Shown: positions 8,867 through 61,373 of the stretch, one piece after another
Layout of the letters: the number at the start of each line of letters is the position of its first letter
Numbering within the stretch: position 1 is the stretch's first letter
Assembly: GCA_003209755.1 (NCBI GenBank)
Contig: QCPD01000007.1
Span: 1-64,000, forward strand
Direction of reading: 5' to 3'
DNA length: 64,000 nt
From: Prochlorococcus sp. AG-436-C14
GTDB lineage: Bacteria > Cyanobacteriota > Cyanobacteriia > PCC-6307 > Cyanobiaceae
Notes under the pieces: generated by a model
Database searches by the model: none
What the model saw: the letters and a program-made list of their open reading frames with translations, nothing else
Told to the model about the DNA's origin: nothing
Program-made: the position numbers and the translations under genes

Positions 8867-10870
8867 TTGGCGGAGAAGAAAAAATATGCTTGGCTTTTAA
8901 ACCTTGGTCTTCTAGGGTTTACAGGTTTACTGTCTTTACTTGAGACTTCGAAAGGAAAGGAGAATTTTCTTCAATATACAGATGCAAATAATCAATATAG
9001 TTTTTCTGTTGGCACTTTAGTTGATAATTCTACAAGCGCTGATTTTGAAAAATTAAAAGCAGAAAATAAAGAAAATATTTTTTTAACCTTAAAAATTTTT
9101 GCAGATAAGCAATATGATTACAATCAAAATATTTATAAAGCTGAAGGCAATGTCAAAGCAATAATAAATGGTGGAATCTTAAGATCAGACTTTCTAAGTT
9201 ATGAAAAATCAACTGGTACTTTATCTGCTGAGGGAAATATTAGATTCACTAAGGGAGGGCAATATTTTCTAGGTAAAGAGTTTAAATTTAATTTATTAAA
9301 GAAAGAAGGAGTAATTAAAGATGTATATGGGATATTAGATGTTGAAAATGTATTAAATGATTTAAAATTTGAGATTAATTCAAATAAGACTGGTCCTAAA
9401 AAAAATAAAATAAATATTTATGATGATGGAATAGAATATTCTTTTGGAAATATTAAATTAACAGAAAATAAAATCACGAGGTCTAATAAATCGATAGGAT
9501 TAATTAATAACTGGAGATTTAAATCAAATTTAATAACTGTTGAGGAGAATGGCTGGAAATCTAATAGAATTATTTTTACGAATGATCCATTTGATTCCCA
9601 TCAAATTTCTTTTGAAGGAATAGATGTTATTGCAGAAGAAGAAGATGATGGTAATTTACTTATTACTAGTTCTAAAACTAATTTAATTCTTGAGAATAGA
9701 ACTAAGATTTATCTAGGTAAAAGAATATTTGGAAGAAAGAAGAAAAATAAAAATAAGCTTGAGTTCATATATGATGGTAAAGATCGTGATGGATTAGTCT
9801 TGATAAGAAGAAGTAATACTACAAATATTAATGATAATATAGAACTTGACTTTCAGCCTCAATTTTTGATTAATAGAGCTATTTTAGGTAAAACTAACAG
9901 CTATAAAAATAGTGAAAATAAAAATACTAATTTTTCTGATTTATTTGGCTTGAGTTTAAAAGTAAATGCAATTAATGATAATTGGGTCTTTGATAGTATA
10001 AATGATCTAAGTACATTAAATATATATAGATTTTCTAATGCTATCAGACATTCAAGTACTTTGAGAAGATATTTTAGGATGCCTATTATAGATGACTCAA
10101 GTTTTAATCTTTTCACTACTTATAGGTCTAGAGCTTGGAATGGAACAATTGGTGAGACTGAGATTAAATCTGCTTTTGGAGGTTACGTTGAAAAGACAAA
10201 GTATTTTAAAACTGGAGAAGTGAAAAATAATTTAAATATTCGAATAGGAACCGCTAGATATGAAGCGGAAAAATTTGAAAATAGTGATATGATAAGTCTT
10301 TGGCGTTCTAGTGTTTTTGCTTCTTTAGATAGTGAATATCCAATCTGGAAGAGTAATCAAAAAGATCTTTATCAAAAGGAATTATCGTCTTTATCTCCCG
10401 TTTTAATTAACCCTGAATTAGTCTTTAGAACTAATATTAATTCGGCATATTTTAACTATAACAATTCAAGTGATCAAGGCTTTCTAAAACTCAGTTTAGG
10501 CCCTGAAATTAGACTCGGAACTTTAGATCGCAATTTTCTTGATTATACAAAATTTTCGGTTATGCCAGGTTTGAAAATTAAGTTTGGAAATAGTCCATTT
10601 AAGTTTGACAATGCTATTGATTTGAAAACATTAAATATAAGTTTAATGCAACAAATATATGGACCTTTGATGTTTGATGTGATCTCTAATTTAAATATTG
10701 ATAATAGATCAAACACTTATGGAGAATATTATGATACAAAGTTAGGCCTTTTGTGGCATAAAAGATCATACGAATTTGGAATTTACTATCATCCTAATAA
10801 TTATGCAGGAGGATTATATTTTCGTATAAATGGATTTAAATTTGGTAATTCTGTAAACGCAGTATTTTAG
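8867..10870 (+). CDS. DUF3769 LptD-like outer-membrane beta-barrel protein
   Basis: This 667-residue envelope protein has an N-terminal hydrophobic segment (residues ~8-22), which could be a signal peptide. An OstA/LptA-like repeat region follows (about 75-160, with NIYKAEGNVKAIINGG and TGTLSAEGNIRFTKGG). The long C-terminal part alternates aromatic and polar residues and ends GLYFRINGFKFGNSVNAVF, with a terminal Phe as in outer-membrane barrels. The family is probably the cyanobacterial counterpart of LptD, which inserts lipopolysaccharide. The start is TTG at 8867; no ATG or GTG is in frame before the signal. A/T-rich codon use matches the neighbourhood. Confidence 0.75.
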   Translation: MAEKKKYAWLLNLGLLGFTGLLSLLETSKGKENFLQYTDANNQYSFSVGTLVDNSTSADFEKLKAENKENIFLTLKIFADKQYDYNQNIYKAEGNVKAIINGGILRSDFLSYEKSTGTLSAEGNIRFTKGGQYFLGKEFKFNLLKKEGVIKDVYGILDVENVLNDLKFEINSNKTGPKKNKINIYDDGIEYSFGNIKLTENKITRSNKSIGLINNWRFKSNLITVEENGWKSNRIIFTNDPFDSHQISFEGIDVIAEEEDDGNLLITSSKTNLILENRTKIYLGKRIFGRKKKNKNKLEFIYDGKDRDGLVLIRRSNTTNINDNIELDFQPQFLINRAILGKTNSYKNSENKNTNFSDLFGLSLKVNAINDNWVFDSINDLSTLNIYRFSNAIRHSSTLRRYFRMPIIDDSSFNLFTTYRSRAWNGTIGETEIKSAFGGYVEKTKYFKTGEVKNNLNIRIGTARYEAEKFENSDMISLWRSSVFASLDSEYPIWKSNQKDLYQKELSSLSPVLINPELVFRTNINSAYFNYNNSSDQGFLKLSLGPEIRLGTLDRNFLDYTKFSVMPGLKIKFGNSPFKFDNAIDLKTLNISLMQQIYGPLMFDVISNLNIDNRSNTYGEYYDTKLGLLWHKRSYEFGIYYHPNNYAGGLYFRINGFKFGNSVNAVF

Positions 10871-51205: not shown

Positions 51206-51631
51206 GTGAGTGAAGACACCAAAACAAAATCAAATCCTTTGGAAAATTCGAATTCTGATGGAAAACAGAAGCAAGTTATTTCATTGGATCCAAAAAACTC
51301 AACCGAGGAATTTGATCCAAAAGGAAATCGCTTCGAATGTATGAGTTGTGGTTTTATTTATGATCCTGATGAGGGTATAAAAAAGCTAAATATTGAACCA
51401 GGAACGGCATTCTTGGACATAGACAGAGAGAAGTTTAGATGTCCAGTCTGTCGAGTAGGATTTGGTGGATATAAGGATATTGGTCCTAAGTCAAAGCCTA
51501 GTGGATTTGAAGAAAACCTTACTTATGGCTTTGGATTTAATAAACTTCCCTCAGGTCAGAAAAACGTTCTTATTTTTGGAAGCCTGGCTTTAGCCGCTGC
51601 CTGTTTTCTCTCTCTTTATTCTTTGAAATGA
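51206..51631 (+). CDS. rubA: Membrane-anchored rubredoxin
   Basis: RubA is a thylakoid rubredoxin needed for early photosystem II assembly. I chose GTG 51206 ([13 protein letters not shown]); in-frame TTG/GTG codons at 51182, 51191 and 51197 are alternatives. The iron site is [15 protein letters not shown] and [15 protein letters not shown], with four Cys in two CxxC pairs, and a C-terminal membrane helix ([20 protein letters not shown]). The stop overlaps the ycf48 ATG, coupling two PSII assembly factors. Confidence 0.92.
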
Positions 51632-52644
51632 AACGTCTGTTTTCAAATGTCATTAATTTGGCCCTTGTCTTAATTGTTGGATTGGCTCTTAGTGGTTGTA
51701 CTGTTAGCAATGCTTCCATTGGTTCATCAAGCCCTTGGTCACTAATCGACCTCGATACTGAGGCTAATCCACTGGATGTTGACTTCGTCGATGACAAAAA
51801 TGGGTTTTTAGTTGGCACAAATAGATTGATTCTTGAGACAAATGATGGTGGGATTACATGGAAAGAAAGAAATTTAGATATTCCAAGCGAAGGCAACTTT
51901 CGTTTGATAAGCATTGATTTTAAAGGGCAAGAAGGTTGGATTGCAGGTCAACCAGGATTGATTCTTCATACAACTGATGGAGGAAAAAATTGGACTCGAC
52001 TCGATTTGGGAAATAAGTTGCCAGGAGATCCATATCTGATTACAACAATTGATAATGATTCTGCTGAGTTGGCAACTACTGCTGGAGCAATTTATAAAAC
52101 AATTGATGCTGGTACAAATTGGGAAGCAATAGTTGTTGATACCTCAGGCTCTGGAGGTATAAGAGAATTAAGGCGCACAAATAATGGTGGCTATCTAAGC
52201 GTTAGTAGTCTTGGAAACTTCTTCTCGGTTCTGACTCCAGGAGAGGAGACATGGAGTCCTCATCAAAGAGCTAGTAGCAAGAGAGTACAAAGTGTTGGAG
52301 AACAGCCAAATGGCGATTTATGGATGCTTTCTAGAGGAGCTGAAATCAGATTTAATGCAGATCCTGATGATGTCGACTCCTGGTCAAAGCCCATAATCCC
52401 AATCGTCAACGGGTATAACTATCAAGATCTTGCTTGGGATCCATCTAAGTCGATTTGGGCAGCGGGAGGAAATGGAACATTATTAGTGAGCAATGATGAT
52501 GGAAAAACTTGGGGGAAAGACCCCGTTGGTGAATCTGTTCCAACAAATTTCATCAGAATTTTATTTGTGGACGATTTTAATAGTGACAGTCCAAAGGGAT
52601 TTGTATTCGGAGAAAGGGGCAATTTACTGCGATGGCAGGGTTGA
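51628..52644 (+). CDS. ycf48: Photosystem II assembly factor Ycf48/HCF136
   Basis: Ycf48 binds newly made D1 and guides the PSII reaction center assembly module. The 338 residues start with a lipoprotein signal peptide ending [12 protein letters not shown] (lipid-modified Cys ~24), then a seven-bladed propeller with repeated WxxxDLG-like turns ([43 protein letters not shown]). The length is normal. It overlaps rubA by 4 bases, and psbE follows 107 bases downstream. Confidence 0.95.
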
Positions 52645-52751: not shown

Positions 52752-53000
52752 ATGGCTGCCGGCTCTACCGGGGAACGCCCGTTTTTTGAGATCATTACTA
52801 GTGTCCGCTATTGGATTATCCATGCGGTAGCACTTCCTGCGATCTTCGTGGCAGGATTCCTATTTGTGTCTTCTGGGCTTGCCTACGACGCTTTTGGAAC
52901 TCCTAGACCAGATACGTATTTTCAGGCTGGAGAAAGCAAAGCTCCTGTTGTTGTTCAGCGCTTTGATTCCAAGGCTGAACTTGACACGCGTCTGAAATAA
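52752..53000 (+). CDS. psbE: Cytochrome b559 subunit alpha
   Basis: PsbE supplies one of the two heme-ligating histidines of cytochrome b559 in PSII. The 82 residues contain [20 protein letters not shown] (~17-36) with the heme His, and the lumenal end [11 protein letters not shown]. The sequence is intact and of normal length. Only 29 bases separate its stop from psbL: the beta-subunit gene psbF, expected here, is not present. Confidence 0.96.
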
Positions 53001-53029
53001 CCAAATTTCATCTGATTGCTTTTTTATCC

Positions 53030-53149
53030 ATGCAAGTCAATCCAAATCCAAATAAAGTTCCGGTTGAATTAAACCGAACAAGTCTTTATCTTGGACTCTT
53101 ACTTGTTTTTGTAATGGGAATTCTTTTTTCCAGTTACTTCTTTAACTAA
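53030..53149 (+). CDS. psbL: Photosystem II reaction center protein L
   Basis: The 39 residues [20 protein letters not shown] and [19 protein letters not shown] match PsbL along its whole length; PsbL sits at the PSII dimer interface and stabilises QA. The ATG at 53030 lies between psbE and psbJ, where psbF-psbL-psbJ is the normal order. It ends 11 bases before psbJ. Confidence 0.95.

Positions 53150-60821: not shown

Positions 60822-61373
<552 letters not shown>

Follow-up and report, generated by a model that had tools for sequence, protein, structure and literature searches.

The stretch of DNA analysed in this study (hereafter the window, 64,000 nucleotides long and with a GC content of 33-36%) comes from Prochlorococcus sp. 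AG-436-C14, a member of a genus that is labelled g1 here and is probably low-light clade I. It carries a cluster of photosystem II (PSII) genes, which is arranged as follows:

51628 to 52644, + strand: open reading frame 5' of psbE for a PSII assembly factor, presumably ycf48/HCF136-like; used as a tree marker only
52752 to 53000, + strand: psbE (cytochrome b559 alpha subunit), 82 aa; TIGR01332 at 118 bits, heme His retained (RYWIIH)
53001 to 53029, + strand: psbF-less junction between psbE and psbL, 29 bases; spacing read directly
53030 to 53149, + strand: psbL, 39 aa; Pfam PsbL at 82 bits
53161 to 53358, + strand: psbJ, 65 aa; Pfam PsbJ at 57.5 bits

In the window, psbE, psbL and psbJ are all intact and stand in the usual order. 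A preliminary description, which placed the end of psbE at 53000 and the start of psbL at 53030 with 29 bases between them, was exact in these coordinates, and the families of the flanking genes are confirmed by profiles. Close strains have the same arrangement. The psbF gene is absent from its place between psbE and psbL in all 27 g1 genomes whose junction was read, as well as at both junctions read in the sister genus g19, with spacers of 27-30 bases in g1 (n = 27) and of 33 and 34 bases in g19 (n = 2). These 29 junctions comprise 23 from g1 (the window's included), four further ones from g1 and two from g19, and six of the g1 genomes concerned are single contigs of 99-100% completeness. A comparison set of 32 genomes contained 27 with a psbE match (4 from g1, 2 from g19 and 21 from other genera); no psbE match was found in the remaining five (G099, G075, G052, G132 and G302). 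The last of these, G302 (genus g33; 100% completeness, 2 contigs), also gave no match to the PsbF pattern, possibly owing to a contig break. Among the 21 genomes of other genera in the family, psbF sits between psbE and psbL without exception (two read FTIR and four read FFAVH), and in the 17 that were measured, 1-7 bases separate psbE from psbF and 11-25 bases separate psbF from psbL. Given these spacer lengths, the 29-base gap is about as long as expected if the psbF frame had been cleanly excised.

Three possible causes of the gap had been proposed in the preliminary description, namely an assembly or local deletion artefact, a relocated psbF, and an unusual cytochrome. The artefact is excluded by the agreement of all 29 genomes, 27 from g1 and two from g19. 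As regards relocation, a PsbF query against the window's assembly returned a PsbE cross-match alone (E 0.2), the Pfam Cytochrom_B559 profile matched PsbE only, and the motif FTVRxxA[V/I/M]H, searched as a DNA pattern, gave no match, in agreement with the earlier remark that no psbF-like motif is seen elsewhere. Ordinary PsbF was likewise not found in the 41 g1 genomes with a Prochlorococcus-type PsbF protein query, whose matches were a long-form protein described below, PsbE cross-matches, and one sequence with an internal stop (E 0.49, genome G188). The DNA pattern was matched in 0 of 41 g1 and 0 of 3 g19 genomes; it matches 155 of 400 genomes overall, with many false negatives in genera that have a normal psbF, and weight therefore falls on the protein search. 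A relocated ordinary psbF was thus not found in the 41 g1 genomes, and what stands of that proposal is that a PsbF-like helix persists elsewhere in the genome as part of a fusion protein. It is scarcely credible that an ordinary psbF is present in the genus and was missed, or that the gap is a fault of assembly after all: the window's genome is a draft (52 contigs, 94% completeness) and the DNA pattern is prone to miss psbF, but the junctions are fully concordant, single-contig genomes among them, and the PsbF protein query that detected PsbF in all 15 class outgroups found none in g1, nor did the Prochlorococcus-type query.

The sole PsbF homologue in g1 is a protein of 97 residues (96 and 101 residues in two g19 genomes), in which a PsbY-like helix comes first, then roughly 26 residues of linker, then a PsbF-like helix (33 protein letters, not shown). 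It is a member of the NCBIfam family 'cytochrome b559 subunit beta, long form', and hence the long form already has a name: it matches NF002717 over its whole length (residues 3-97; 173.4 bits, cut-off 153), whereas the family name (NF002717/NF002720) is silent on the PsbY-like half, on an Asn discussed below, and on the failure to find ordinary PsbF in g1 and g19. Residues 59-92 alone match the PsbF profile TIGR01333, above its cut-off (64 bits, cut-off 61.15); unlike PsbF, the long form has Asn in place of the heme His, Thr in place of Trp, and an extra preceding helix. The long form was found in 30 of the 41 g1 genomes, including all seven of at most 7 contigs and all 12 of at least 95% completeness, and the 11 genomes without a match, the window's included, are all drafts (51-94% completeness). 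In g19, two of the three genomes carry it among the matches listed. The PsbF-like part is under strong constraint: across 31 distinct sequences (30 from g1 and one from g19, all at least 80% identical by tblastn), the PsbF-like part had a pN/pS of 0.014, compared with 0.140 for the linker and 0.189 for the PsbY-like part. A predicted structure with two helices (residues 3-26 and 65-91) was too weak for use (pLDDT 60, pTM 0.36). No phage-borne long form was matched in 50,697 phage records, and one 12-residue piece matched in the viral contigs.

In the window's own assembly (G000), the long form had no match. Contig C12 of this assembly, which shares synteny with the complete genome G002 at the long-form locus, stops at base 61132, i.e., 1.0 kb short of the gene start expected from that synteny. 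It is very improbable that this genome has lost the long form too, leaving a cell devoid of any beta subunit: the missing match is in favour of such a loss, but the place of the gene was simply not assembled. A true absence is accordingly unsupported, and presence is not thereby proven. In G002, the long form adjoins two genes of unknown family (L094:8678-9106, - strand, and 9781-10215, + strand); the arrangement is similar in G011 (L060), where the close homologues of these two genes had no Pfam or NCBIfam match.

The sequence of the first helix hints, weakly, at a PsbY-like identity. Its best PDB match was PsbY (9t5u_R, E 0.017) and the second was 7ymi chain F (E 1.8), and Pfam PsbY (PF06298) was the sole match for three of five long-form N-terminal pieces (E 0.005-0.012), though at 15.9-17 bits these matches lie below the cut-off of 24 bits, and PF06298 did not match the g1 N-terminal piece. 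The helix also bears an FWLxxW motif, which the stand-alone PsbY of g26 and g55 lacks. Gene content argues independently for the PsbY identity, since stand-alone PsbY was not found in g1 and g19. In g26, g55 and g33, this gene adjoins trmFO; it is absent from the trmFO flank in four g1 genomes and one g19 genome (the window's contig begins too close to trmFO for that flank to be judged). No credible match to stand-alone PsbY was obtained in the 17 g1 and three g19 genomes searched, where the only g1 match (E 0.33, in the window's genome) shows no PsbY on reading, and no match to a PsbY profile was better than E 0.3 in six g1 genomes and one g19 genome. These searches have blind spots, as G065 (99% complete, with an ordinary psbF) gave no PsbY either. 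With both PsbF and PsbY missing, the missing subunits are therefore the two whose helices the fusion carries. A fusion of the same two proteins is found in chain F of PDB 7ymi/7ymm, presumably from Acaryochloris marina, and both long-form helices align to that one chain; its order is opposite to that of the long form, with PsbF first, and its heme His is present. This chain has 99 residues and is named PsbY although it is a PsbF-PsbY fusion. The PDB sequence search returned no structure of a g1-type PSII.

Cytochrome b559 has two His ligands to its heme, one per subunit. At the heme-His position, Asn is found in all 143 long-form loci read (142 by the search expression, plus L076, which escaped it and also reads Asn), where loci overlap and several come from one genome, so that they are not 143 distinct genomes. 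The same holds for 43 of 43 g1 loci taken alone and for 80 of 80 loci of named Prochlorococcus (the best 80 of 244 relatives), as opposed to a heme His in 51 of 51 short-form loci. Two loci, L078 and L168, were counted as long forms on the basis of 67 open residues upstream (range 59-118 for long forms, 12-42 for short forms). The Trp next to the heme site is changed as well (FTVRT instead of FTVRW) in 18 of 19 aligned long forms, and the Arg of FTVR adjoining the site is retained. The ligand on the PsbE side has been retained in g1, with the heme His present in 27 of 27 psbE genes. The pair of His ligands is therefore not complete in g1, as there is a His in PsbE and none in the only beta-like protein found. 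In G052 (genus g29), the linker of the long form L083 is shorter and the Trp is the ordinary one (FTVRWLAIN), yet the Asn is already there; in this 90% complete draft, psbE was not found, nor was an ordinary PsbF among the matches listed.

Loss of the other ligand was observed elsewhere in the family. Gln takes the place of the PsbE heme His (FWVIQ or FWIIQ) in 13 of 400 family genomes, belonging to 10 of 59 genera (L275-L287); a reversed-pattern control gave 0 matches. Each of the 13 has psbF in its usual position with the His retained, but the sequence there is FFAVH instead of WLAVH. The three of these genomes examined for PsbY (G091, G060 and G040) encode a stand-alone PsbY-like protein with FWLxxWGV, a motif of which L, W and V are invariant in 19 of 19 long forms, and nine genomes that match the N-terminal part of the long form alone all belong to PsbE-Gln genera, among the matches listed. 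In the few genomes concerned, an FWLxxW-type PsbY thus appears to be tied to ligand loss.

A Ycf48 tree of 46 rows (L024 and L029, of the 48 outgroup loci, were omitted as their Ycf48 match was too short) joins g1 and g19 in one clade (support 99/93) and places g32, g55 and g26 in another (support 99/99), with the PsbE-Gln genera in an unresolved part together with g73, which has an ordinary psbF. Ordinary psbF and the long form occur together in the sampled genomes of g26, g55, g32 and g69 and in three of g33 (G106, G155 and G173), and the g33 genomes G056 and G133 have the ordinary form only, among the matches listed. This coexistence in related genera indicates that the fusion either predates the loss of psbF or has spread laterally. 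In genomes that have both, the long form might have a role outside PSII.

The reading that we regard as probable is that the fusion has replaced both PsbF and PsbY, and that one of the two ligands of the cytochrome b559 heme has been lost, probably together with the heme. The gene loss and the residue changes are read directly from the genomes, and from these it is inferred that the long form is placed in PSII, stands in for both subunits and leaves the site without heme. In the common ancestor of g1 and g19, psbF would have been deleted cleanly from between psbE and psbL and stand-alone psbY lost too, with the roles of PsbF and PsbY passing to a single protein. The PsbF-like helix would join PsbE in the usual position of cytochrome b559, and the PsbY-like helix would lie alongside. 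Since the beta ligand is Asn and not His, PsbE and the long form could not share the usual bis-His heme; the simplest outcome would be a heme-free cytochrome b559 with only a structural and assembly role left. The proposal of an unusual cytochrome is therefore favoured, since the fusion has no heme-binding His. According to PMC9214863, alpha-His mutants of T. elongatus have active PSII with apo-cytochrome b559, and Arabidopsis without PsbY has low-potential b559 only; PsbY has also been proposed as a stabiliser of heme binding (PMC4823308). A covalent PsbY-PsbF unit could keep the pair together without heme.

Several points count against this reading: the 11 g1 genomes without a long-form match, the weak sequence case for PsbY in the first helix, the blind spots of the PsbY searches, and the possible other role of the long form where an ordinary psbF is present. 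As for the heme, little active PSII accumulates in the majority of Synechocystis and Chlamydomonas strains mutated in a heme ligand (PMC9214863), and a heme-free protein would not need the PsbE His that g1 has kept throughout. The conserved PsbE His, together with the retained Arg of FTVR, would suit a cytochrome in which the long form replaces PsbF and the heme stays, either five-coordinate via the histidine of PsbE or weakly ligated at the sixth position by Asn or another side chain, so that b559 would be high-spin and of low potential. This outcome is unlikely, as the neighbouring Trp has also been altered, and as the loss of the PsbE ligand in other genera fits heme loss better than it fits one special coordination. 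The same His could alternatively serve a heme site built from two PsbE proteins, with the long form outside the PsbF position. This is improbable, given that each g1 genome has one psbE match and no duplicate, that constraint within the long form is strongest on the PsbF-like helix, and that this helix is close enough to ordinary PsbF to pass the cut-off of TIGR01333.

The state in g1 and g19 resembles that of laboratory PsbE and PsbF heme-ligand mutants in that one of the two His ligands is missing; those mutants are man-made, whereas the present case is natural and clade-wide (PMC9214863). A proteomic study has measured PsbF in strain SS120 (PMC5451487). Among the matches listed in the open-licence PMC literature, no report of psbF loss or of the Asn was found. 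The annotation 'beta subunit, long form' hides the missing ligand, and presence/absence tables would therefore score such genomes as normal.

More broadly, it could equally well be right or wrong that evolution in the Prochlorococcus family has produced PSII with a heme-free b559 on two or more occasions, via the Asn fusion in g1 and g19 and via the change of the PsbE His to Gln in 10 other genera, both with an FWLxxW variant of PsbY, and that the genera with both forms (g26, g55, g32, g69 and part of g33) may assemble photosystems with and without the heme in parallel. According to a recent review, opinions differ as to whether cytochrome b559 has any physiologically relevant redox function (PMC12661325). 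PSII of this Prochlorococcus group may work without the b559 heme, and a clade apparently lacking one heme ligand, together with genera lacking the other, would allow what the helices do structurally to be told apart from what the heme does as a redox group, and this in abundant living organisms.
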